From Steroidobacter gossypii (GTDB lineage Bacteria > Pseudomonadota > Gammaproteobacteria > Steroidobacterales > Steroidobacteraceae): a stretch of DNA of 64,000 nucleotides. The DNA lies in the NCBI RefSeq assembly GCF_016801985.1, contig NZ_JAEVLS010000002.1, forward strand, positions 744,001 to 808,000, in the 5' to 3' direction. This document shows, one piece after another, positions 1,566 to 16,532 of this stretch (position 1 is its first letter; every line of letters starts with the position of its first letter). A program made the position numbers and the translations under genes. Below the pieces are notes generated by a model. It searched no databases. It was not told the DNA's origin and saw nothing but the letters and a program-made list of their open reading frames with translations.

Positions 1566-1636
1566 GGATGACTCCAGGGGCCAGCGGCTCGAATACCCAT
1601 GACTTCGCCCCACCGCCGGCCCCGGCCGCGGGCAAA

Positions 1637-1737
1637 GTCAAAGGTCTCGCCTAGCTGATGCCGCCGACGCCATGGTCTTCGACCAAGTCTGTTGACGTCG
1701 GCTCCTTACGTTGCGTAAGGCGGCTACTCCCCAGTGA
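1637..1737 (-). promoter_or_regulatory. yybP-ykoY manganese riboswitch
   Basis: Read on the minus strand, the leader contains the two conserved blocks of the yybP-ykoY aptamer. GGGGAGTAG lies near the 5' end (about 1733-1724) and GCGAGACCTTTG near the 3' end (about 1650-1638). Between them lie paired arms, including CTTACG-caa-CGTAAG. The aptamer ends about 70 nt before the manganese exporter start. This class binds Mn2+ and turns on export genes. Boundaries are approximate. Confidence 0.88.
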
Positions 1738-1746
1738 CGGGGCGGG

Positions 1747-1851: not shown

Positions 1852-3543
1852 TCAAGAGGAGCGTGACGGGTCGGTCAAAGGCTCGGCCAGGTCGTGCGGC
1901 GTCGAGACATGGCCCGCCGGCAGTGCTCCGGTCTGACGCTCGATCATGCGCCGGACGACCGGCAGGCCAGGGCCTTGGTGCAACTCACGCAGACGTTGCG
2001 GAATGTTTGCATCGTCCTGCGTCATGCGATTGTTGTGGCGGATGTATTCGAGCCAGGTCGGCGTTGTGAAGCGCTCGACCCAGACGTGCGGATCGGCCAG
2101 GTCTCGCAGCAGCATCCAGTTCATCGCGCCATCGCGCTTACGAATGCGCCGTCGCTCGGCCATGGTGTTCAAAAACTCGAGCACGTCCTCTTCACGAATG
2201 TTGTACTCGACGGTGATCACCACCGGGCCGGTGCGCGACTCGACAGGGACGGCGGTTTCCGGCGCCTGCCACAGGCGCAGCGGGTCCAGATTCAAGTCGT
2301 CTGTTTCGGAAAGGGGAATGCGAAGGCCCATGGCCGCGCAGATCAGCATGACGATGGCGGCCGCGACCATGGCGAGCAGTACTCCATCGCTCGCGGAGAT
2401 CACGCCCCACAACCAGCTGCCACCCGCCATGCCGGCGAACGTTGTGACTTGATACAAAGAGAGTGCGCGTGCGACGACCCAGCGCGGTGTCGACAGCTGA
2501 ACTGTCACGTTGAACGTCGATAGCGTCAGCACCCAGGCTGCGCCGGCGATCACCATCATCGGGACGGTGAGGGCGATGTACGGGCTGATTCCGGAAACAG
2601 CGGCCGCGATCGCGAAGGCGATGCAGGAGACTCGCGCCAGTCCTTCCGACGAAAGTCTCTGACGCAATCGTGCGCTACTCAAGGCGCCGCCGACAGCGCC
2701 AGCGCCGAACGCGCCGAGCAACAAGCCGTATGTCATCGGTCCACCGCCGAGGAGATCTCGTGCGATCAGCGGGAGCAGCGCCATCACGGAGCTGGCGCCA
2801 ATACCGAACACCGCGCCTCGGACCAGAACTCTCCTGATCCCGGGTGACATCGAAACGTAACGCAGGCCGGCCGCGATGGCGATGCCGAGCGTTTCTCGAG
2901 GAAGCAGTTGCGGTGGGCGAACCGGGCGCCAGCGGGTCAGCACCCAGATCAGCGGAATGTAACTTGCCGCATTCACCGCGAACGCCGCCGCCGCTCCTGC
3001 CCCGGCCACGATCGCGCCGCCGATCGCTGGGCCCACACTGCGCGCGATGTTGAACCCCATGCTGTTGATCGCGACCGCTCCTGCCAGATGCGATCTAGGC
3101 ACCATGTCGCCCACCGATGCTTGCCACGCTGGCCCGTTGAACGCCGCGCCACAGCCGATGAGAAATGTGAACAGCAGCAGCAGCCAAGGCGAGATCATGC
3201 CCAACCAGGCAAACACCGTGAGCGTGATCGAAACCAGCAGATTGAAAATCTGCGCTCCCAGCAGTACCTGCCGCCGATCCAGACTGTCGGCCATCGCGCC
3301 GGCGAACAGCGAGAACAACACGATGGGAAGCGCCACGGACGTCTGCACCAGCGCCACCATGTCGGCCGATTTCGCAATCGAAGTCATCATCCACGACGCG
3401 CCGACCGTCTGAATCAACCCACCCAGATTCGACAGCACGCTGGCGAACCAGATGGAGCGAAACACCGGAAAGCGGAACGGGGACAACGCCGAGACCGGCG
3501 GCGTGTCGTCGGCGGTGGAAGCGGAGGTGGCCTGGAGCATCAC
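1852..3543 (-). CDS. MFS transporter of the MFS_3 / enterobactin-exporter-like type
   Basis: A 563-residue protein with about 12 hydrophobic segments in the first 400 residues and the MFS loop signature ADSLDRRQVL between helices 2 and 3. A soluble C-terminal domain of about 130 residues follows (VVITVEYNIREEDVLEFL...), rich in Arg and resembling the small ferredoxin-like domain often attached to this subfamily. Relatives include EntS-type siderophore or drug exporters. The substrate is unknown. The gene stands alone; its stop is about 75 nt from the riboswitch promoter on the same strand and its start is about 47 nt from the sapC stop. Confidence 0.8.
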   Translation of the reverse strand: MMLQATSASTADDTPPVSALSPFRFPVFRSIWFASVLSNLGGLIQTVGASWMMTSIAKSADMVALVQTSVALPIVLFSLFAGAMADSLDRRQVLLGAQIFNLLVSITLTVFAWLGMISPWLLLLFTFLIGCGAAFNGPAWQASVGDMVPRSHLAGAVAINSMGFNIARSVGPAIGGAIVAGAGAAAAFAVNAASYIPLIWVLTRWRPVRPPQLLPRETLGIAIAAGLRYVSMSPGIRRVLVRGAVFGIGASSVMALLPLIARDLLGGGPMTYGLLLGAFGAGAVGGALSSARLRQRLSSEGLARVSCIAFAIAAAVSGISPYIALTVPMMVIAGAAWVLTLSTFNVTVQLSTPRWVVARALSLYQVTTFAGMAGGSWLWGVISASDGVLLAMVAAAIVMLICAAMGLRIPLSETDDLNLDPLRLWQAPETAVPVESRTGPVVITVEYNIREEDVLEFLNTMAERRRIRKRDGAMNWMLLRDLADPHVWVERFTTPTWLEYIRHNNRMTQDDANIPQRLRELHQGPGLPVVRRMIERQTGALPAGHVSTPHDLAEPLTDPSRSS

Positions 3544-4472: not shown

Positions 4473-7250
4473 ATGAGAGCCAGGCAGCGCATCGTGTATG
4501 GATCGCGTATTGCTTCGTTCACTGGCGGCGGCCTGATCGTGCTGGCGGCCGCAGCGCCGAGCGAAGTGCTCGCCGCGCAAGCTTTGGAAGAAGTCGTCGT
4601 CACCGGCATCCGCGGCAGCTTGAGCGAGTCGGCGGAGATCAAGCACAGCTCGAATTCCATCCTGGACTCGATCAGCTCCGAGGACCTGGGAAAATTCCCC
4701 GATTCCAACGTTGCCGAATCCCTGCAGCGCATTCCTGGCGTCGCCATCGATCGCAGCGACGGCGAAGGTCGCTTCGTGACCGTGCGCGGCTTTGGGCCGG
4801 AGTTCAACAACGTGCTGCTCAACGGACGCACCTTCGCCAGCGACAACGAGGGTCGCGAGTTCAGCTTCGATCTGCTGGCGGCCGAGCTCATCGCGGGCGC
4901 GGACATCTATAAAAGCGCCGTGGCCAGCGTCCCCGACGGCGGCATAGGAGCCACGATCAACGTCAGAACGCCGCGGCCGCTGGACTTGGGAGGCTTCAAC
5001 GCCATCGTGTCTGGCAAGGGCATGTACGAGGAGGTGAGCGAGGACGTTGCGCCCCAAGGCTTCGCATTGCTGAGCGATGTCTTTGCCGATGGCAAGTTCG
5101 GCATACTCGGCGCGGTGTCGTATCAGGAGCGCAAGTCGCTCATCAATTTCATTCGCAACAGCGGCTACTTGCCGCGTTCCATCGTCGGGCCGCCCAGCGC
5201 GCCGCTCTTCACCAACGTATTCGCGCCCCGCAATCTGGATGTCGGTCAGGAGACTCAGGATCGCAAACGTCGCGGCGTCAACATCACCGCGCAGTACCGG
5301 CCGGCGGACGATCTCACTTTGACGCTCGACGGTTTGTACAACAAGTTTGACGTCGAGTCTTCGATGCGCTCGCTGGGCAGCTGGTTCGAACCGTCGAACT
5401 ACACCGCCGCGACCATTGACGACAATCGCACCGTGACCTCGCTGACCACCAATGGCAACGCCGACTTCATCGCGGAGGCGGACAATCGATATGTCACCAC
5501 GCGCGCACTCGGGTTCAACATGGAATGGCAGGCGAGTGACGCGATCGGCCTGGACGCCGACGTAGCATGGTCGGAGTCCGAGAACGATGCCGGTGGCAAG
5601 AACTATTTCACGGTGATTGGCGTGGCCACGCCGTACAGCTTCACTCAAGCCAGTGGCAGCGGATTTCCATCGGTGTTCGGCTATTCATCCAGCCTCACCG
5701 ATCCAAACGTCGGCCGCACGCACCTCGCGCAGCGCAGCGGAGATGATCAGCGAGAGCAGGTGGTCGAGTCCAAGCTGAAGCTCGAGTGGAGTCCGGAAGG
5801 CGATTTCCTTGAAGCCGCGCGAATCGGCGCGCTGTTGACGCGGCGAGAGAAGGAAACAAGGTCCATAGCGACCGATGGCAACATCACTTGCTTGTACTGC
5901 GGCTATCCCACGCTGACCGATCCCGGCCTGCTGCGCCCGTTGGATCTCGGCAGCTTCCTCGGCGGGGGCGGATCGGTGCCCAAGCGTTTTCAAACATATG
6001 ACCCCGAGGCTTACTTCGCATTTCTCGAAAGTGCCCAGGCGGCGGCGGCACTCGACGCGGCGAGGGGCGTGGCGCCAGGCACGAGCGCAGCCGCGCTGGC
6101 GCAGGCGGGTGGCTTCGTTGCGGTTCCTCAATCGAGCTCCTATAGCATCGACGAAGATGTGCTCGCGGGCTTCGTCGAGTTCGACTTCGGCGGAACATTG
6201 GGATCGATGCCATGGTTCCTCAACCTTGGCGTGCGCTACTCGCGCACCGAGATCGATGCCGCGGGTCAGCAGCTCGAACTGATCGACATTCTGCCGGTGG
6301 CGGGAGATCCGACGATTTACCAGGGCGTGTTCGCCAACGACGGCGATCCACAGCCGACGCGACGCAGCTCCAGCTATAACGACGTGCTGCCGAGCCTGAA
6401 CTTCAAGCTCGAGCTGACGCCCGAAATCGTCGGCAGGTTCTCGGCATCGCGAACGCTCAGTCGTCCTCAGGTGCAGGACCTCGCGCCTCGCACGAATATC
6501 GACACGCTGCGGCCGGCGAGCCTGGCGGCGAGCGGCGGCAATCCGGATCTGAAGCCGTACACTGCCGACAACTACGATGTTTCGCTGGAATGGTATCCCG
6601 ACAGAACCACCATGCTCAGCGCCGCCTTGTTCTACAAGGATGTGAAAGACTTCATCGTGCAAACGCGCGCCGACGAAACATTCACTATCATCAACTCGGG
6701 CAACTTGCCGGTCGGCGGCTTGATCACGGGCCCGAACGAAGCCAGGTTCAGTGTGCGTCGACCGCGCAATCTCGATAATGCGACGGTGCGTGGCGCGGAG
6801 TTGAACCTCGTCTACTCATTCACGAATTTGCCGGGCTGGCTGAGCGGATTCGGCACGCAGCTCAATGCGACGTTTGTCGAAAGCAATGTGGCCTTCGCAC
6901 CCGAATCCGATACGGTGTCGTTTGCGCTGGAAGGTCTGGGCGACTCGCGCAATGCGACCTTGTTTTACGAGTACCAACGGATTGGGGTGCGCGTCGCATA
7001 TAACTGGCGCGACGGATTTCTGGAGCAATTGGTCACTTCCGGTCAGGGCGGCGATCCCGTGTACCGTCGCACTTATGAGCAGATGGATTTGCGACTTAGC
7101 TTCATGCTCACCGACCAGGTTCAGACCTTTCTCGAGGGCACCAACGTGCTCGGCGAGGAGATCATCACCACCGGCCGCTTCGACAATCAGGTGCTCAGCT
7201 ATATCGACACCGGAGCCCGATGGGCATTGGGCCTGCGCGCGACGTTCTGA
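4473..7250 (+). CDS. TonB-dependent receptor, Xanthomonas/Caulobacter type
   Basis: A 925-residue outer-membrane receptor. A signal peptide (about residues 1-35) is followed by a TonB box-like EEVVVTG. Next comes the plug domain with LQRIPGVAIDR, VRGFGPEFNNVLLNGR and GGIGATINVRTPRPLD, and then a long beta-barrel ending in the usual terminal Phe (GLRATF). This subfamily of long receptors usually imports plant or algal carbohydrates or other large substrates by TonB energy. The nearby sapC is a common partner. The start is supported by a GGGGG stretch just upstream. The substrate cannot be told from sequence. Confidence 0.93.
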   Translation: MRARQRIVYGSRIASFTGGGLIVLAAAAPSEVLAAQALEEVVVTGIRGSLSESAEIKHSSNSILDSISSEDLGKFPDSNVAESLQRIPGVAIDRSDGEGRFVTVRGFGPEFNNVLLNGRTFASDNEGREFSFDLLAAELIAGADIYKSAVASVPDGGIGATINVRTPRPLDLGGFNAIVSGKGMYEEVSEDVAPQGFALLSDVFADGKFGILGAVSYQERKSLINFIRNSGYLPRSIVGPPSAPLFTNVFAPRNLDVGQETQDRKRRGVNITAQYRPADDLTLTLDGLYNKFDVESSMRSLGSWFEPSNYTAATIDDNRTVTSLTTNGNADFIAEADNRYVTTRALGFNMEWQASDAIGLDADVAWSESENDAGGKNYFTVIGVATPYSFTQASGSGFPSVFGYSSSLTDPNVGRTHLAQRSGDDQREQVVESKLKLEWSPEGDFLEAARIGALLTRREKETRSIATDGNITCLYCGYPTLTDPGLLRPLDLGSFLGGGGSVPKRFQTYDPEAYFAFLESAQAAAALDAARGVAPGTSAAALAQAGGFVAVPQSSSYSIDEDVLAGFVEFDFGGTLGSMPWFLNLGVRYSRTEIDAAGQQLELIDILPVAGDPTIYQGVFANDGDPQPTRRSSSYNDVLPSLNFKLELTPEIVGRFSASRTLSRPQVQDLAPRTNIDTLRPASLAASGGNPDLKPYTADNYDVSLEWYPDRTTMLSAALFYKDVKDFIVQTRADETFTIINSGNLPVGGLITGPNEARFSVRRPRNLDNATVRGAELNLVYSFTNLPGWLSGFGTQLNATFVESNVAFAPESDTVSFALEGLGDSRNATLFYEYQRIGVRVAYNWRDGFLEQLVTSGQGGDPVYRRTYEQMDLRLSFMLTDQVQTFLEGTNVLGEEIITTGRFDNQVLSYIDTGARWALGLRATF

Positions 7251-10195: not shown

Positions 10196-11464
10196 ATGGC
10201 TCCAGACCCAAGACGTGCAAGCGTAGGCACCGATGAGACGATAACAACCAGTCTGGACCGGGCGCCGCAGGAAGCCTTGAGTGCGCTGTTCCTGAGGTTC
10301 TTGAAATTCGGCGCCATGGCGTGGGGTGGCCCCATGGCGCAGATCGCCATGCTGCGCCGATCGCTGGTTGAAGAACAACACTGGGTTTCCTCGGAGCACT
10401 TCAACCGCATTCTGGCGCTGTATCAGGTGCTGCCGGGACCGGAAGCGCACGAGATGTGTGTGTATTTCGGCACTCTGGCGCGCGGCCGCATCGGAGGTTT
10501 GCTCGCAGGCCTCGGATTCATGCTGCCGGGCTTCCTGCTGATCCTGGTATTGTCGTGGGCGTATTTTCATCTGGGTCTGGACCTGCGCGGCAATCTGTCG
10601 CTGTTGTTTGCAGCAGCGCAAGCGGCGGTGATCGCGCTCATCGTCCGTGCCGTTCATCGAATCGGCAGCCATGTCCTGCTGAATCCATGGTTATGGGGCA
10701 TCGGTGTAGGCAGCTTCCTCGGGCAACTCATGGGCGTGCACTTCGCCGTGCTGTTGACGTGCGGCGGGCTCATCTATTTCATCCAGCGCTTCAACCCGAC
10801 ACTGACCGTCGTCCTGCTGGTGCTTTGCTTTGCCGGACTCGTAGGCAGCTATGGGATCTACGGCTTGTTCGATTCATCGCCGCTGACGCAGCCCGTCGTG
10901 GTCGACGCGCTTGGCTCCGAGGCCTTACGGCAAGCCTCTCTGGCAGCACTGTTCTGGTCGGGGCTCAAAGCCGGCTTGCTCACGTTTGGTGGCGCGTACA
11001 CGGTCATTCCATTTCTGCAGCGGGATGCGGTGTCTCAAGGCGCATGGATGTCGAACGCGCAGTTCATGGACGGCATCGCGTTATCCGGATTGCTGCCGGC
11101 GCCGCTGATCATTTTCTCGACGTTCGTCGGCTATGCGGGCGGGGGGCTGGCGGGAGCCATCGTGATGACGGTCGCGATCTTTCTTCCGGCGTTCGTGCTT
11201 CCCATCCTGATCCACGAGCCGCTCGATCGTCTGCTCCACGATACTCGCATCCGAGATTTCCTGGATGGGATCACCGCCGCAGTGGTCGGCCTGATCGCCG
11301 GAACCGCTGTGGCCTTACTGATGGCGGCTGTGAAGGATGCCTACACTGCCGCGGTGTTCCTCGTGTCCGCCGGGCTGCTGTTCTATTCGAATCACAGGCT
11401 GATCGTGCCGCTGGTCATCGCCGGCGCCGCGGTCGTAGGTGCTTTTGCGATGGCAGTCACTTGA
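10196..11464 (+). CDS. chrA: Chromate transporter, two-domain CHR family
   Basis: A 422-residue inner-membrane protein with both CHR domains. The N-terminal half has FLKFGAMAWGGPMAQIAML and YQVLPGPEAHEMCVYFG; the C-terminal half repeats the pattern (LLTFGGAYTVIPFLQ, ALSGLLPAPLIIFSTFVGY). The PGP and GG motifs are hallmarks of long-chain CHR proteins that export chromate by proton antiport. Some CHR proteins have other anion substrates, so chromate is the family default and not proven. A promoter with a 19-bp spacer lies just upstream. Confidence 0.88.
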   Translation: MAPDPRRASVGTDETITTSLDRAPQEALSALFLRFLKFGAMAWGGPMAQIAMLRRSLVEEQHWVSSEHFNRILALYQVLPGPEAHEMCVYFGTLARGRIGGLLAGLGFMLPGFLLILVLSWAYFHLGLDLRGNLSLLFAAAQAAVIALIVRAVHRIGSHVLLNPWLWGIGVGSFLGQLMGVHFAVLLTCGGLIYFIQRFNPTLTVVLLVLCFAGLVGSYGIYGLFDSSPLTQPVVVDALGSEALRQASLAALFWSGLKAGLLTFGGAYTVIPFLQRDAVSQGAWMSNAQFMDGIALSGLLPAPLIIFSTFVGYAGGGLAGAIVMTVAIFLPAFVLPILIHEPLDRLLHDTRIRDFLDGITAAVVGLIAGTAVALLMAAVKDAYTAAVFLVSAGLLFYSNHRLIVPLVIAGAAVVGAFAMAVT

Positions 11465-11595
11465 GAAAGGCGTGCGACTTGAAATTCCGGGTCGCGTCGC
11501 CATCGAGGGCGCTATACAGTAACGATATGGGCGCGCGGCTTCGGTGGGCGGCACGCGCCGACATCAGCCCACGGCAACCAAAGGAGGTGATCCAA

Positions 11596-11667
11596 GTGGC
11601 ACATTTAAACGTTGGCTCGGCCGCGTCTCTAGGGGCGCTGGTTGGTAGCGAGGTTCATCGGCGTTAG
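11596..11667 (+). CDS. 23-codon ORF behind a perfect 16S-complementary ribosome-binding site
   Basis: AAGGAGGTGATCC (11581-11593) matches the full 13-nt complement of the 16S rRNA 3' end. It lies directly upstream of a GTG start at 11596, with eight bases between AGGAGG and GTG. The peptide begins VAHLNVGSAASLGAL and ends in VHRR. An in-frame ATG at 11527 would give 46 residues but has no ribosome-binding site. I do not recognise the peptide. The extreme ribosome-binding site is the reason for listing it. Confidence 0.4.
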   Translation: MAHLNVGSAASLGALVGSEVHRR

Positions 11668-11701
11668 TCGGTGCCTCTTGCTGGCCAGGAGGCCATAGAG
11701 G

Positions 11702-11776
11702 ATGCGCGCAGGCTTTCGTCACGCGCGCGACCGGGTCCAACGGATGGACGCTCCGATGCAGTTGCCGTGCGGATGA
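11702..11776 (+). CDS. 24-codon ORF with AGGAGG site
   Basis: AGGAGG (11687-11692) stands nine bases before an ATG that opens a 24-residue Arg-rich peptide starting MRAGFRHARDR. It lies in the same small transcription unit as the 23-codon ORF, 34 nt downstream. A six-codon ORF overlaps its stop as ATGA. No homologue is known to me; translation is plausible from the site alone. Confidence 0.33.
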   Translation: MRAGFRHARDRVQRMDAPMQLPCG

Positions 11777-11809
11777 CCTTGGTTCGCACGTAGTTTGCTT
11801 CGAGCAGGG

Positions 11810-11844
11810 ATGGCGGAGTTCGCAAGGACTCCGCCATTTTCTTT
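11810..11844 (+). terminator. Intrinsic terminator of the small plus-strand unit
   Basis: A perfect 10-bp stem ATGGCGGAGT/ACTCCGCCAT (11810-11819 with 11828-11837) with loop TCGCAAGG is followed by TTTTCTTT. The T-run lies on the plus strand, so it terminates transcription coming from the chrA side. It may also protect the 3' end of the convergent lasso mRNA. Confidence 0.85.
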
Positions 11845-11847
11845 GGT

Positions 11848-13686
11848 CTATGCGGAGTCGCTAAAACTCCAGCGCCGCAGCCACGCCTCGGTACTGAGGT
11901 GCTCCCCGATGATCTCCGCAGCGGCCGGGCTCAGGCCGACGTTGGCGCCGGTGAGTGCAGCCTCGACTTTGCGCCGATCCAACAGCTGATGTTCGATAAG
12001 TTGTCCCTCGAGCATCAGCTCCCTGACGAACTCCAGGTTGTTTTGTAACAGGACGTTCATGGCCACGCCGATCGAGCCCTTGCGACGTCGCTGCACGACT
12101 CTTGAAGGGAGCACGTCCATGAATGCCCGACGCTCCAGAGCGCGGTCCCAACCGGCCGCGGTGTGCATGTAAACGGGAATCTGCAAGCACAGATCCACAA
12201 GCGGCTGCGATATCAACGGGCAAACGTACTCCGGATCTCCGCGCTCGGCGAAGGGAGAATAGAAATAGACGCCGTAGCCGCGCATCTGATACAGGTGTCG
12301 CAACTTCGCCGGAGGAAGCCGTCCACGAGTCGCAGTGTATCGGTGCCAGAAGAAGTCTGGTTCGTTCGCTGCCGCGCGAAGTACGTCTGGGCTGACCACC
12401 GAACGTTCACGGACGGACTTGACCATCTCATCGACACGAGCGATGGGAAGCAAAGCCCGACAGGCCTGCCACAGGACCGACCCCAGCGACAGGTTGTCCA
12501 TGCGGGCGATCGAAAGCGCTAGATCGAAGCATCCATTCGTCCCGAAGTGTGCGCGCATCTGATCCGCCAATGCGAGAGGGACAGGTCCTTGGTAGAAGAC
12601 GGCATCGCCGCCAACGCCAGTAAAGTAGGCAGCCGCGCCCGTGTCCTGCGCGAGCTTTCGTTCGACTTCTTGCGTCAGCGTTCGGTAGATGAGGCCGAGT
12701 GGCACAGTCGTTCTGGCGCAATCGAGCATGCCACGCAAATCGTGCGCCGGACTTTGCGACGGGCGCTCGATGAGTTCGCAGTCATGGCCGCTCAATGCGA
12801 GGCGAGCGAAGAAGCGCTCGTCGGAGTTCACACCCGCCAGGCCGTAGTAGTTCAAGCAGGTGATCCGTGGGCGCGATGGAGCCGAGGCCAGGCAGTGAAG
12901 CAGTACCGATGAATCCAGCCCTCCGGAAAGCAGATGCACGATCCGTGGATACCTGCTTGCCCACGCCGTAACCACCTGTTCGGTGCGTGCGCGAACGTGT
13001 CGGGTACTTTCTTCGATGCTGTTGGGCCACTCGCGACGGGCGATGCTCACGGGGTCCCACAATTGTCGACTGGCCGTGATCTTGCCATCGCGCAGCTCGA
13101 TGCATTCGCCTGGATGAACCTGGCTGATCTCCCGGAGTCCGGTAGCTCGGCTCTGTGGGTCCGCGCAGCAGAGATGGCGAGCGATGTAGTGCCAGTCGAT
13201 GGTGCAGCCATCGAGCCCGGCCATGCGCGCATCGTCCGCCCAGGAGAAGAAGATCAACAGGTTTGAAATCGCTGCGTAGTAACACGGCAAAACGCCGGTC
13301 GGATCTCGCAGGACCCGCAGCGTCGAGTTGCTGGTGGAGCAAATGAACGAGACGTAGCGTCCCCAGTAGCGATCGACCAGGTGCGTTCCGCCGCTGGCAA
13401 CGATTCGATCCGACTCCGACTCGGAGAGCTGCACTCGAGCGCCGGGCTCGCGTTCCAGCGTCGCACAATCGAACAAAGTACCCAGCACGAGGCCGTCGCC
13501 TCTCGGGAAGGCGATACTCTCGGTCGATGGCGGCCGCAAACCGGTGAGATACACGCGCAAGCCAGGGACATCCATCGCGGTGGTCCATCGATCCGATGAG
13601 CACTCAAGGCGACGCTCAAGCTCGCGTGCGTTGATGCGCGCGCTCTCGCTGCGTGGATCCCATGTCGCGGCAAGAAAGCGGAACAT
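11848..13686 (-). CDS. Lasso peptide cyclase (asparagine-synthetase homologue, C protein)
   Basis: A 612-residue protein with the lasso C architecture. The N-terminal glutaminase-like domain has lost the catalytic Cys2 (it starts MFRFLAATWDP, a typical lasso C start). The C-terminal asparagine-synthetase domain carries the ATP-pyrophosphatase loop SGGLDS at residues 254-259. The enzyme activates the ring Asp/Glu side chain of the precursor as the adenylate so that the core's N terminus closes the macrolactam. The frame is open further upstream, but the ATG at 13686, 14 nt after the B gene's stop, matches homologue starts. It is the last gene of the A-B-C cluster. Its stop faces the small plus-strand unit. 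Confidence 0.9.
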   Translation of the reverse strand: MFRFLAATWDPRSESARINARELERRLECSSDRWTTAMDVPGLRVYLTGLRPPSTESIAFPRGDGLVLGTLFDCATLEREPGARVQLSESESDRIVASGGTHLVDRYWGRYVSFICSTSNSTLRVLRDPTGVLPCYYAAISNLLIFFSWADDARMAGLDGCTIDWHYIARHLCCADPQSRATGLREISQVHPGECIELRDGKITASRQLWDPVSIARREWPNSIEESTRHVRARTEQVVTAWASRYPRIVHLLSGGLDSSVLLHCLASAPSRPRITCLNYYGLAGVNSDERFFARLALSGHDCELIERPSQSPAHDLRGMLDCARTTVPLGLIYRTLTQEVERKLAQDTGAAAYFTGVGGDAVFYQGPVPLALADQMRAHFGTNGCFDLALSIARMDNLSLGSVLWQACRALLPIARVDEMVKSVRERSVVSPDVLRAAANEPDFFWHRYTATRGRLPPAKLRHLYQMRGYGVYFYSPFAERGDPEYVCPLISQPLVDLCLQIPVYMHTAAGWDRALERRAFMDVLPSRVVQRRRKGSIGVAMNVLLQNNLEFVRELMLEGQLIEHQLLDRRKVEAALTGANVGLSPAAAEIIGEHLSTEAWLRRWSFSDSA

Positions 13687-13700
13687 CGATCGATGCGCGG

Positions 13701-14420
13701 TCAAACGACCATGATGGGCGTGAACAACGCCACGCGGTCGAGGGTATCGTTGAGTACGGCCTCTCCATCTTGCAACCAGCAGTGAGCCCCGAACGGGGCC
13801 TGGCGAACGCCGAATACCCACCGTGGCTGCCAACCGAAGCGCCCCAGAAAGTACAGCAGCGTCAGGGACTGAAACAAACACCGTTGGTGGCCGCTGAACA
13901 CGAACGGCCGCAGCCAGTAGAAATCCTCCAGTAGTGATGCGAGGTCGGCGTCGGGTCGAGAGTCGCCGCGGCGTTTCGCAATCTTGTGTGTGATGTGTTC
14001 GATCGATTGGAAGCGAAGCGCGGCCTTCGCTTTGATCGTGGACCAGATCATCGCCGGCAAGTAGCACTCGGCACGTTGCCAGGTCGATGCAGGGGGTTGT
14101 GGAATGAGCTGGGGTTCGGGTATCAATGCCCGGCGGGGCGTAGGAATGCTCGCGGGCGTTGCGGCTTTTCCGTGTGATGGCGTTCTGGTCAGGATGCCCT
14201 GCGCGATCAAGTCATCGATGATCCCGTCCGCGGTCTGCGGCGACAAACTGCGATCTGCTGGCGGCGTGCTCGCAGCGGGCCAGCCCGGAACTCGTCTCGC
14301 GAGCAGCTGGGTTTGGTGCCTGGGAAGTGCGAGATACCGATTCCGCTTGAGGTCGAGCAGGACCACATCGGGAACGCTGCAGATGAAGATGTGCGGCTGC
14401 AGGTAAAGCGGCGGTTGCAT
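13701..14420 (-). CDS. Lasso peptide B protein: fused leader-binding RRE and transglutaminase-like protease
   Basis: A 239-residue protein with two parts. Residues 1-80 are PqqD-like, the RiPP recognition element, with VVLLDLKRNRYLAL as the expected beta-hairpin. Residues about 115-239 form the B2 protease (Transglut_core3), with Cys181 (HQRCLFQSL), His213 (FGAHCWLQ) and Asp225 (AVLND) as the likely triad and the usual FTPIMVV end. It binds the leader and cuts it off. I placed the start at the ATG at 14420; a GTG at 14450 would put an 18-bp palindrome inside the gene. It lies between precursor and cyclase genes. Confidence 0.9.
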   Translation of the reverse strand: MQPPLYLQPHIFICSVPDVVLLDLKRNRYLALPRHQTQLLARRVPGWPAASTPPADRSLSPQTADGIIDDLIAQGILTRTPSHGKAATPASIPTPRRALIPEPQLIPQPPASTWQRAECYLPAMIWSTIKAKAALRFQSIEHITHKIAKRRGDSRPDADLASLLEDFYWLRPFVFSGHQRCLFQSLTLLYFLGRFGWQPRWVFGVRQAPFGAHCWLQDGEAVLNDTLDRVALFTPIMVV

Positions 14421-14430
14421 GGCGACGCGG

Positions 14431-14448
14431 GCGGCGCTCGAGCGCCGC
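14431..14448 (-). repeat. Perfect 18-bp palindrome between lasso A and B genes
   Basis: GCGGCGCTCGAGCGCCGC is perfectly self-complementary and lies in the gap between the precursor stop and the B start. It can form a strong RNA hairpin without a following T-run. A hairpin here would favour accumulation of the precursor mRNA over the enzyme genes, as described for other proteobacterial lasso operons. The role is inferred. Confidence 0.7.
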
Positions 14449-14473
14449 ACACGTTCGGTTCGTTACCGGCCCA

Positions 14474-14617
14474 TCAACACTCGTTGCCCCACCACGTCTT
14501 GTTTGCTTCGCAGCCCGCGGGGTTGAATTCGTGATCGCGACCGCCGATACCCTTTGTTTCTTCAGTGACGGTACCGAGCTCCAGTGGCTGCTCGAGCGAC
14601 ATCTCGTTGACCTGCAT
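14474..14617 (-). CDS. Lasso peptide precursor (A peptide), 47 residues
   Basis: A 47-codon gene with AAGGAGG six bases before the ATG at 14617. The leader (about residues 1-22) begins MQVNEMSLEQPLELG and ends TVTEETK, giving the conserved Thr at position -2 and the PLxLG element recognised by B proteins. The core (residues 23-47) starts GIGGRDHEF and ends TWWGNEC. Gly1 and Glu8 would form an eight-residue macrolactam. The tail contains Cys14 and Cys25 and the bulky pair Trp20-Trp21. Position directly before the B and C genes supports the call. Related tail-disulfide lasso peptides are known, but I do not recognise this core. Confidence 0.88.
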   Translation of the reverse strand: MQVNEMSLEQPLELGTVTEETKGIGGRDHEFNPAGCEANKTWWGNEC

Positions 14618-14648
14618 GGCGAACCTCCTTGTGCGTTACGCGTCGCCG

Positions 14649-14677
14649 ATCTCAACGGACGAGGCATTTATTGTCAA
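14649..14677 (-). promoter_or_regulatory. Promoter of the lasso operon
   Basis: A consensus TTGACA (14677-14672 on the minus strand) is 17 bases from a weaker -10, TGAGAT (14654-14649). It would start transcription about 24 nt before the precursor ATG. It lies in the gap after the sulfatase gene, so the cluster can be expressed independently. Confidence 0.5.
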
Positions 14678-14729
14678 GCAATGTACGAGCAGATCGATTT
14701 CAGATTGCCTGTGCGGAGGCGGGTTTGGA

Positions 14730-16532
14730 TTACAGCAGTTCGTCGGACGCCATCGCGGACTCGATCTGATCGAAGTAGCGTAGGTGCGCGAGCGCGGTCG
14801 TTGTCTCGCTCGGGGCGTCGCAGCTGCAGTTCCAAACTTCCTGGCGCCGGATTTCTTGCAGAAGGTTGAAATACGCGACGTCGCGGATGCCTGCGCGTTC
14901 GAGCACGACAGCCGGCAGGAACCACGATGGGTGATCGTCGGTGCGCACTTCGTCGGAGCCGTTGTCGAGGAGCAGCCACGGCACGGCCTGTTCTTCAGGC
15001 CGCCTGCCATTCTGGAACGGCACTTGCGCAAACACTCGATTGAGCGGCGGCATATGATCGCTGTAGACGAGCAATAGCGTTCGGCGCTGCCGCGATTCGA
15101 CGAAATCGATCAACCGGGCAAGCTGCTGGTCGGTGGCCTGAACCATGGCCATATAAGTTTGCAGAGCCGACTGTGTCGTAGCATCCAACCCGGCGATTTG
15201 AATCTCGGGTCGCTCATTCGACGCCAGTGGCACATCGTCATAGGGGCCGTGATTCTGGATGCTGATCGCCATGATCATCTGCGGCGCGCCATCGTCGTCC
15301 ATCTCCGCCATGACGCGCTCTACCAGCGCTGCATCGCTCACATAGTGACCATGGCGCTCGGCGCCATCGAAAGCCGGGCCATTGATGAAGCGGTCGAAGC
15401 CCATGGCTCGGAACGCGTCGTTGCGATTCCAGAACGCGCCGCCGTTGGGATGGAGCGCCAACGTTCGATAGTCGCGCGCTTTCAATTCGCGCACCAAGCC
15501 GGGAATCTCCGAGCGCCTGAGCTGCAGATAGGGATATCTCACGCGTGCGAACGCGGCGAGCGGCAATCCGGTGAGCACCTCGAACTCGGTTCGAATCGTG
15601 CCGCCGCCGAACGTCGGGACATGCAGATTCCCGGACCAGCCGCGGCTCATGGCGGCGCGCAAGCGTGGAAGGGCATCGTAGTCGACGCCGGCGAGACGGC
15701 TCGGGTCGAACAGCGATTCACTCTGGAAGATGATGATGTCGGGAAGTTCGGTTCGCTCCACCGCTGCAACGGGCAGCGGAGCGAGCAGGCTGCGATCGTG
15801 AAGGACGCGACGCGCTTGCTCGAGGTTGACTGAATCTGGCGAGTCGTCGGCCAACTCCCAATAGAACAGCAGCATGTTGGTGATGATGCCCGTGCGCGCA
15901 GCGCTGTCGCGAGGCGCCCACGGCTCGAACTCCAGATTGCCGGCGTTGTAAATCACTTTCCACGGAGCGCTGCCGTGGGCGAGCGAAATCGCCAGAACAA
16001 CTGCCGCCAATGCGATCGCTCCACGCGAACGACCTTTCAAGAACTCGATGGTCGGCTCCCTGCGGACCAGCAACAGCGTCACGGACAATGTCAGGATGGC
16101 AAAACACAGCTGCATTCGTGAGCTGGCGAGATACTGCGCGAAGAACGAGTAGCTCACGCCGAGTGTTTTCAAGAAACGAAAGTCGTCGGGCAGCAACGGC
16201 GTGGCCAGCTCCTGCATCTTCAGATGGTTGACGAAGTACACGGCGCCCAATGCGAGGACGGTCAGCCAGTTTGACAGAAGAAGCCGTCGCGTGATCACCA
16301 GGAAGGCGGCATTGAGAATCAGCACGGGTAACAAGTTCAGCGCGGCCAGCCCCCAGATGCGTGGTGTCGACAAGGTCAATGGCCAGGGCAGGGCCGGGTC
16401 GAGCCAGCACAGCAGCAGCACGTACGCCAATGGCGTGATCCACAGGGCGTACTTGATCGCACCGCTTGACCAAACCGATCCTGGATGGAGTGCCGCGGAA
16501 GCAGGGTTGGAGTTTGTTTCGTAACGGTTCAC
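14730..16532 (-). CDS. LTA-synthase-like membrane sulfatase (phosphoglycerol/phosphoethanolamine transferase type)
   Basis: A 600-residue protein with four to five membrane helices in the first 200 residues and a periplasmic sulfatase-fold domain. The catalytic Thr312 sits in GGGTIRTEFEVLTG, the LTA-synthase form of the nucleophile motif. Metal ligands are suggested by QSES at about 270 and YSDHMPP near the C terminus. In Gram-negatives this family adds phosphoglycerol or similar groups to periplasmic glycans or lipids; the substrate is unknown. The GTG start overlaps the stop of the upstream OmpA gene as GTGA, so translation is probably coupled. Confidence 0.82.
   Translation of the reverse strand: MNRYETNSNPASAALHPGSVWSSGAIKYALWITPLAYVLLLCWLDPALPWPLTLSTPRIWGLAALNLLPVLILNAAFLVITRRLLLSNWLTVLALGAVYFVNHLKMQELATPLLPDDFRFLKTLGVSYSFFAQYLASSRMQLCFAILTLSVTLLLVRREPTIEFLKGRSRGAIALAAVVLAISLAHGSAPWKVIYNAGNLEFEPWAPRDSAARTGIITNMLLFYWELADDSPDSVNLEQARRVLHDRSLLAPLPVAAVERTELPDIIIFQSESLFDPSRLAGVDYDALPRLRAAMSRGWSGNLHVPTFGGGTIRTEFEVLTGLPLAAFARVRYPYLQLRRSEIPGLVRELKARDYRTLALHPNGGAFWNRNDAFRAMGFDRFINGPAFDGAERHGHYVSDAALVERVMAEMDDDGAPQMIMAISIQNHGPYDDVPLASNERPEIQIAGLDATTQSALQTYMAMVQATDQQLARLIDFVESRQRRTLLLVYSDHMPPLNRVFAQVPFQNGRRPEEQAVPWLLLDNGSDEVRTDDHPSWFLPAVVLERAGIRDVAYFNLLQEIRRQEVWNCSCDAPSETTTALAHLRYFDQIESAMASDELL

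Follow-up and report, generated by a model that had tools for sequence, protein, structure and literature searches.

A minimal three-gene locus of Steroidobacter gossypii predicted to make a lasso peptide with a cysteine pair

Introduction

The biosynthesis of lasso peptides follows a route that is established for the class: an RRE binds the leader of a precursor peptide, the leader is cleaved, an acid is activated, a lactam is formed and the peptide is threaded. In Steroidobacter gossypii, a preliminary description of one stretch of DNA (64,000 nucleotides of contig NZ_JAEVLS010000002.1, positions 744,001 to 808,000; hereafter the window) pointed to a short gene placed directly before B and C genes, and proposed that the three make a new lasso peptide. 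This locus raises the question of how the product of such a bare A-B-C set would be exported, taken up and turned over.

Results

The three genes and their lasso motifs

All three genes lie on the minus strand in the A-B-C order, and the ORFs and the sequence agree with the preliminary description, as do the lasso motifs that it named. Gene A (14474..14617; assigned by its ORF, a leader matrix and Pfam) encodes a lasso precursor of 47 amino acids, and the Shine-Dalgarno sequence AAGGAGG (14624..14630, minus strand) stands six bases before its ATG at 14617. The leader, residues 1-22, ends in TVTEETK with Thr at -2, whereas the core, residues 23-47, is GIGGRDHEFNPAGCEANKTWWGNEC, in which Gly1 comes first and Glu8 is the sole acid within positions 7-9. 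A therefore has what is expected of a lasso precursor, being short and having Thr at -2, a small first residue and an acid within core positions 7-9. The earlier reading of the leader end and the core start holds. A has a leader-matrix score of 31.3, compared with 11.7 for the next-best ORF of the window (the matrix was trained on 23 leaders, that of A being one of them), and a match to PF24178 Subterisin (21.4 bits, E 2.5e-4) that covers residues 13-32 only and does not reach the cut-off of 27. The score against NF033522 benenodin, 14.3 bits, likewise stays below its cut-off of 33. The three genes have G+C contents of 57.6% (A), 62.5% (B) and 61.7% (C), the window as a whole having 62.2%. The preliminary description proposed that A is short enough to escape default gene callers; the minimum ORF length of a common caller is 90 bases, which the 47 codons of A exceed. 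The accessible text of PMC12670498 reports that antiSMASH left one Steroidobacterales precursor unannotated as such.

Gene B (13701..14450, minus strand; assigned by NCBIfam, alignment, a structural model and a profile) encodes a leader peptidase with an N-terminal RRE. It starts at GTG 14450 or ATG 14420, and homologues fit ATG 14420 better. The protein exceeds the cut-offs of both NCBIfam NF033537 lasso_biosyn_B2 (72.3 bits, cut-off 33) and PF13471 Transglut_core3 (61.6 bits, cut-off 26). Its catalytic residues are Cys181, His213 and Asp225, numbered from ATG 14420; Cys181 and His213 are invariant across 15 aligned B proteins and Asn224 nearly so, while the Asp that follows Asn224 is present in the window B and changed in some relatives, such as those of loci L065, L067 and L068. 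Pfam reports no RRE domain in B. A profile built from the 15 sequences matches TfuB1 (6jx3) over residues 3-78 with an E value of 0.0087, and an AlphaFold2 model (pLDDT 89.6, pTM 0.86), in which the N-terminus folds into three strands and two helices, has 5v1v, the complex of TbiB1 with its leader, as its first PDB match (probability 0.91; E 0.073, an E value that alone is not significant). Neither match is strong singly, and together these two modest matches support an RRE in B, so that the protein is consistent with the RRE-fused Cys-His-Asp protease that had been proposed and with the transglutaminase-like leader peptidases of lasso loci.

Gene C (11848..13686, minus strand; assigned by Pfam, alignment and a profile) encodes an asparagine-synthetase-like macrolactam synthetase of 612 amino acids, and its ATG at 13686 lies fourteen bases beyond the B stop. 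It scores 56.6 bits against PF00733 Asn_synthase (cut-off 21) and carries SGGLDS, as expected of an ATP-dependent lasso cyclase with the SGGxDS motif. SGGLDS is common to all 11 aligned C proteins, and other invariant columns are also shared with the ten relatives. The scores against the cyclase-specific models fall below their cut-offs (NF033561, 92.4 versus 300; NF033535, 63.4 versus 525), and the profile of C matches hydroxyamidotransferase, beta-lactam synthetase and asparagine synthetase B.

Surroundings of the locus

A 15-pair hairpin with a T-rich tail (11807..11840, plus strand) sits in the gap that separates C from the convergent chromate-transporter gene. It is terminator-like for transcripts of the plus strand; no T-run follows it on the minus strand. 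A scan for sites of the sigma-70 type found no promoter-like site within 11400-15000, and Rfam at the gathering threshold gave no match in the lasso locus. A hairpin in the A-B intergenic region (-27.2 kcal/mol, z -1.13) is within chance, as 30 of 200 shuffles fold equally well. Elsewhere in the window, a manganese riboswitch (1570-1744, minus strand), scoring 85.3 bits against a cut-off of 45, stands where the same-strand ORF 978-1613 begins. Also between the chromate-transporter gene and C, at 11580-11595 on the plus strand, is the element AAAGGAGGTGATCCAA, which occurs once in the whole assembly and is followed directly by a GTG ORF of 23 codons (11596-11667); we take the first 14 bases of this element to resemble the full complement of the 16S rRNA 3' end.

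Relatives of the upstream sulfatase gene occur in four of 13 other genomes of the genus. At the three of these four loci that were compared, the sole other window gene with a match is 1852-3543, in L106 (tblastn, E 1e-10). For the chromate-transporter gene, one of the 13 gives a match, at 36%. Because this neighbourhood is barely conserved, an empty-site comparison could neither show nor date an insertion.

Partner genes and the other lasso loci of the genome

Ten partner queries, drawn from four of the loci L065-L098, included an isopeptidase, three receptors, FecI, FecR, an ABC transporter and one gene adjoining L066. At least one of them has a match in 33 of these 34 loci, the exception, L071, being a 12.3 kb piece, whereas at E 1e-8 none of the ten finds a counterpart in the window. 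This applies to the ABC transporter of L065, as a D gene, and equally to the isopeptidase of L067 and the receptors of L065, L067 and L080. The window does encode a receptor at 4473-7250, which is of the TIGR01782 type (669.5 bits, cut-off 310) and adjoins a SapC gene; no STN domain is reported in it.

One explanation of this arrangement is a decaying or silent cluster from which the genes for receptor, regulator and transporter have disappeared and which now gives little or no product. The missing partner matches fit this explanation, as do the lack of a near relative within the genus and of a sigma-70-like site around the locus. However, A, B and C are intact and keep their motifs, catalytic residues and a strong Shine-Dalgarno sequence, and we therefore regard silence as unlikely, although it is the alternative that deserves the most weight.

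We favor a functional cluster whose product is handled elsewhere. The host genome of 7.1 Mb holds four lasso B genes above the cut-off. The locus on contig C27 contains A, B and C genes together with an Atxe2-type isopeptidase (471.5, above the cut-off of 400), a TonB receptor with an STN domain, FecR and FecI. The locus on contig C31 contains A, B and C, a TonB receptor and FecI/FecR, and an ABC transporter is encoded on the opposite strand. Since the partner genes not found in the window are each present at another lasso locus of the same genome, handling in trans is likely, and export, uptake and turnover would likely proceed via proteins of these other loci or via general ones. The cluster is slightly unusual in this respect, because genes for transport, uptake and peptide cutting are not adjacent to it, and also because its core has a cysteine pair.

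Two further observations concern these other loci. A 13-base tandem repeat of 12.6 copies (L065:10985-11146) separates A from B at the C31 locus. The third locus, at C22:494 kb, has an Ala1 precursor (L066:10861-10962, AHWHGTL...PTTSP) that is much like one of Xanthomonas codiaei (L141:5057-5212, AHSHGTL...PTTSP), and its C protein groups with the Xanthomonas codiaei C; the likeness of both suggests transfer between genera.

The predicted product

From the genes, their motifs, their homology and the modest RRE matches, we infer that the three genes very probably make one lasso peptide with a Gly1-Glu8 ring, handled in trans or by general proteins. The RRE of B would bind the leader of A, and B would cut after Lys-1, with Thr at -2. 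C would then activate Glu8 and condense it with the Gly1 amine into an eight-residue macrolactam ring, through which the tail would thread with Trp20 and Trp21 as the likely plugs. Cys14 and Cys25 could form one disulfide, and as no partner gene was found in the window, export, uptake and turnover would most likely depend on proteins of the other loci or on general ones. The masses that had been calculated by hand are reproduced (2747.160 Da for the linear core, 2729.150 Da after loss of water and 2727.134 Da with the disulfide), so that a mass of 2727.13 Da is expected for the oxidised product. Threading cannot be read from sequence, and B and C might instead make an unthreaded branched-cyclic peptide that is no lasso, but both the enzymes and the precursor bear lasso motifs, which makes this outcome very unlikely.

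Relatives of C and the position of the precursor

The core and the enzymes were both compared with those of relatives. The core of A was not found elsewhere in the 217 family genomes searched, and its string does not occur in the open-access papers that were searched for it. The precursor search gave matches at E values up to 1 in 49 of the 217 genomes, the own genome included; the best one outside the window has an E value of 0.029 and is read as chance. As to the enzymes, the best C protein among the 13 other genomes of the genus is 34% identical at full length and 36% over a part, which leaves no orthologue for gauging selection on the core. Matches to C at E 1e-100 or better are found in 14 of the 217 family genomes, again counting the own, at identities of at most 38%, and the nearest C proteins, with no more than 38% identity over their length, belong to other genera. 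A search of contigs with C alone yielded no relatives. An alignment-based search found at least 128 loci encoding a relative; among the best 80, identity over the full length does not exceed 36%, and values of 38% and 47% are reached on pieces only. The 47% piece, from L169, spans 130 C-terminal residues, over which ten aligned relatives show 35-44%. A phylogeny of 83 C proteins places the window protein on a long terminal branch (1.03) within a 37-row group that has a support of 100; its position beside L223 is weak (SH-aLRT 82).

The preliminary description counted relatives of B and C without a small ORF at this position as evidence against its reading, and ten close loci (L079, L080, L081, L084, L086, L087, L092, L093, L095 and L224) literally answer to this. 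They leave the reading unrefuted because they have B, C and then a TonB-receptor gene, with the precursor convergent behind the receptor gene. Five of the ten cores fit GGxxGxKxDxGxGWQYx, and those of L093 and L224 nearly do. L169 is likewise of this convergent-precursor type, and such loci would escape a miner searching only before B. Five other loci, L082, L083, L219, L220 and L222, carry B, C, FecI and FecR without a TonB-receptor match, and no credible precursor turned up at any of them. Of these five, L222 is a contig of 5.4 kb, and in L082 the single precursor-pattern match lies inside C.

For a precursor directly before B there is precedent: in loci L065-L098, a matrix-scored precursor stands directly upstream on the same strand at 22 of 36 B genes (counted after removal of duplicate precursors, with some contigs incomplete). 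Moreover, when the dinucleotides of the 279-base intergenic region were shuffled 5000 times, an ORF with a Shine-Dalgarno sequence, Thr-2, Gly1 and D/E at core positions 7-9 arose on the given strand in 4 cases, and A is its one occurrence on both strands of the 64 kb. Given this precedent and rarity, the strong Shine-Dalgarno sequence and the wide lead in matrix score, it is hardly credible that A is a chance ORF and that the true precursor lies elsewhere, as in the ten close loci.

Cysteine-bearing and Asp10 precursors

To place the cysteine pair, residues were counted in 78 precursors that have a matrix score of at least 15 and a Shine-Dalgarno sequence, the matrix having been partly trained on them. 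Cysteines occur in 11 of the 78, two in each (A of the window counted as L001). Both lie after residue 11, and so outside the predicted ring, in four, namely that of the window, two in L089 and one in L063; the remaining seven have one Cys among residues 1-7. A close relative, L081, has a precursor with Cys14 and Cys16 that is off the list solely through the Shine-Dalgarno filter as scored. In A, Cys14 and Cys25 are both outside the predicted ring 1-8, a pattern that, judged from these precursors, is uncommon and not unique to the window.

In the same set, core positions 7-9 hold no acid in nine precursors, each of which has Asp10, counted from Thr-2. They come from L065 (11306-11407, own genome, C31), L027, L022, L071, L073, L075, L077, L078 and L116, eight of them within the genus of the window. 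Their cores, for example QWGLWPQYYD..., begin with Gln in seven, Glu in one and Asp in one. Either these cores would form a ten-residue ring, or cleavage would occur one residue later, with W, Y, F, I, S or Q first. Among the matches listed by a literature search, none was directly on ten-residue lasso rings or Gln1, and the accessible part of the metanodin paper mentions a relative whose ring starts with Gln (PMC12670498).

Discussion

The closest known leaders are those of the Subterisin and benenodin precursors (PF24178, NF033522), with which A shares an LxLGxVTEETK-type leader, Thr-2 and Gly1 along the matching stretch 13-32, while scoring under both family cut-offs. In these families the precursor genes are accompanied by genes for an isopeptidase and a TonB receptor, neither of which is found beside A of the window. 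The closest C proteins, at up to 38% identity, are those of the ten B-C-TonB-receptor loci from other genera of the family, which differ in the convergent position of their precursor and in cores unlike that of the window. Metanodin (BGC 89, Steroidobacterales) also comes from an A-B-C lasso cluster of the same order according to the accessible text of PMC12670498, but it starts with Asn1, unlike the window core with its Gly1 and Glu8.

Class IV lasso peptides, as presented in the accessible portions of PMC9266682 and PMC13352647, have one disulfide in the tail, and the examples LP2006, pandonodin and felipeptins have two cysteines outside the ring, as predicted for the window core. The product would thus be class IV-like if oxidised. 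The class IV clusters, as far as the accessible text of PMC9266682 describes them, hold A-D genes, whereas the window cluster shows no D. If Trp20 and Trp21 are the plugs, Cys14 would sit in the loop. We speculate that, with the Trp pair astride the ring, a disulfide between Cys14 of the loop above it and Cys25 of the tail below might create a further ring that passes through the first, so that a bare A-B-C set without a transporter would give two covalently interlocked rings instead of a disulfide confined to the tail; we consider such a topology improbable.

In summary, the locus adds a core with a cysteine pair, unrecorded before, to the Steroidobacteraceae, a family rich in divergent lasso loci. 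Its minimal A-B-C set is directly expressible as a construct, and the locus could be used to test the in-trans handling of a lasso peptide that has no transport and uptake genes of its own.
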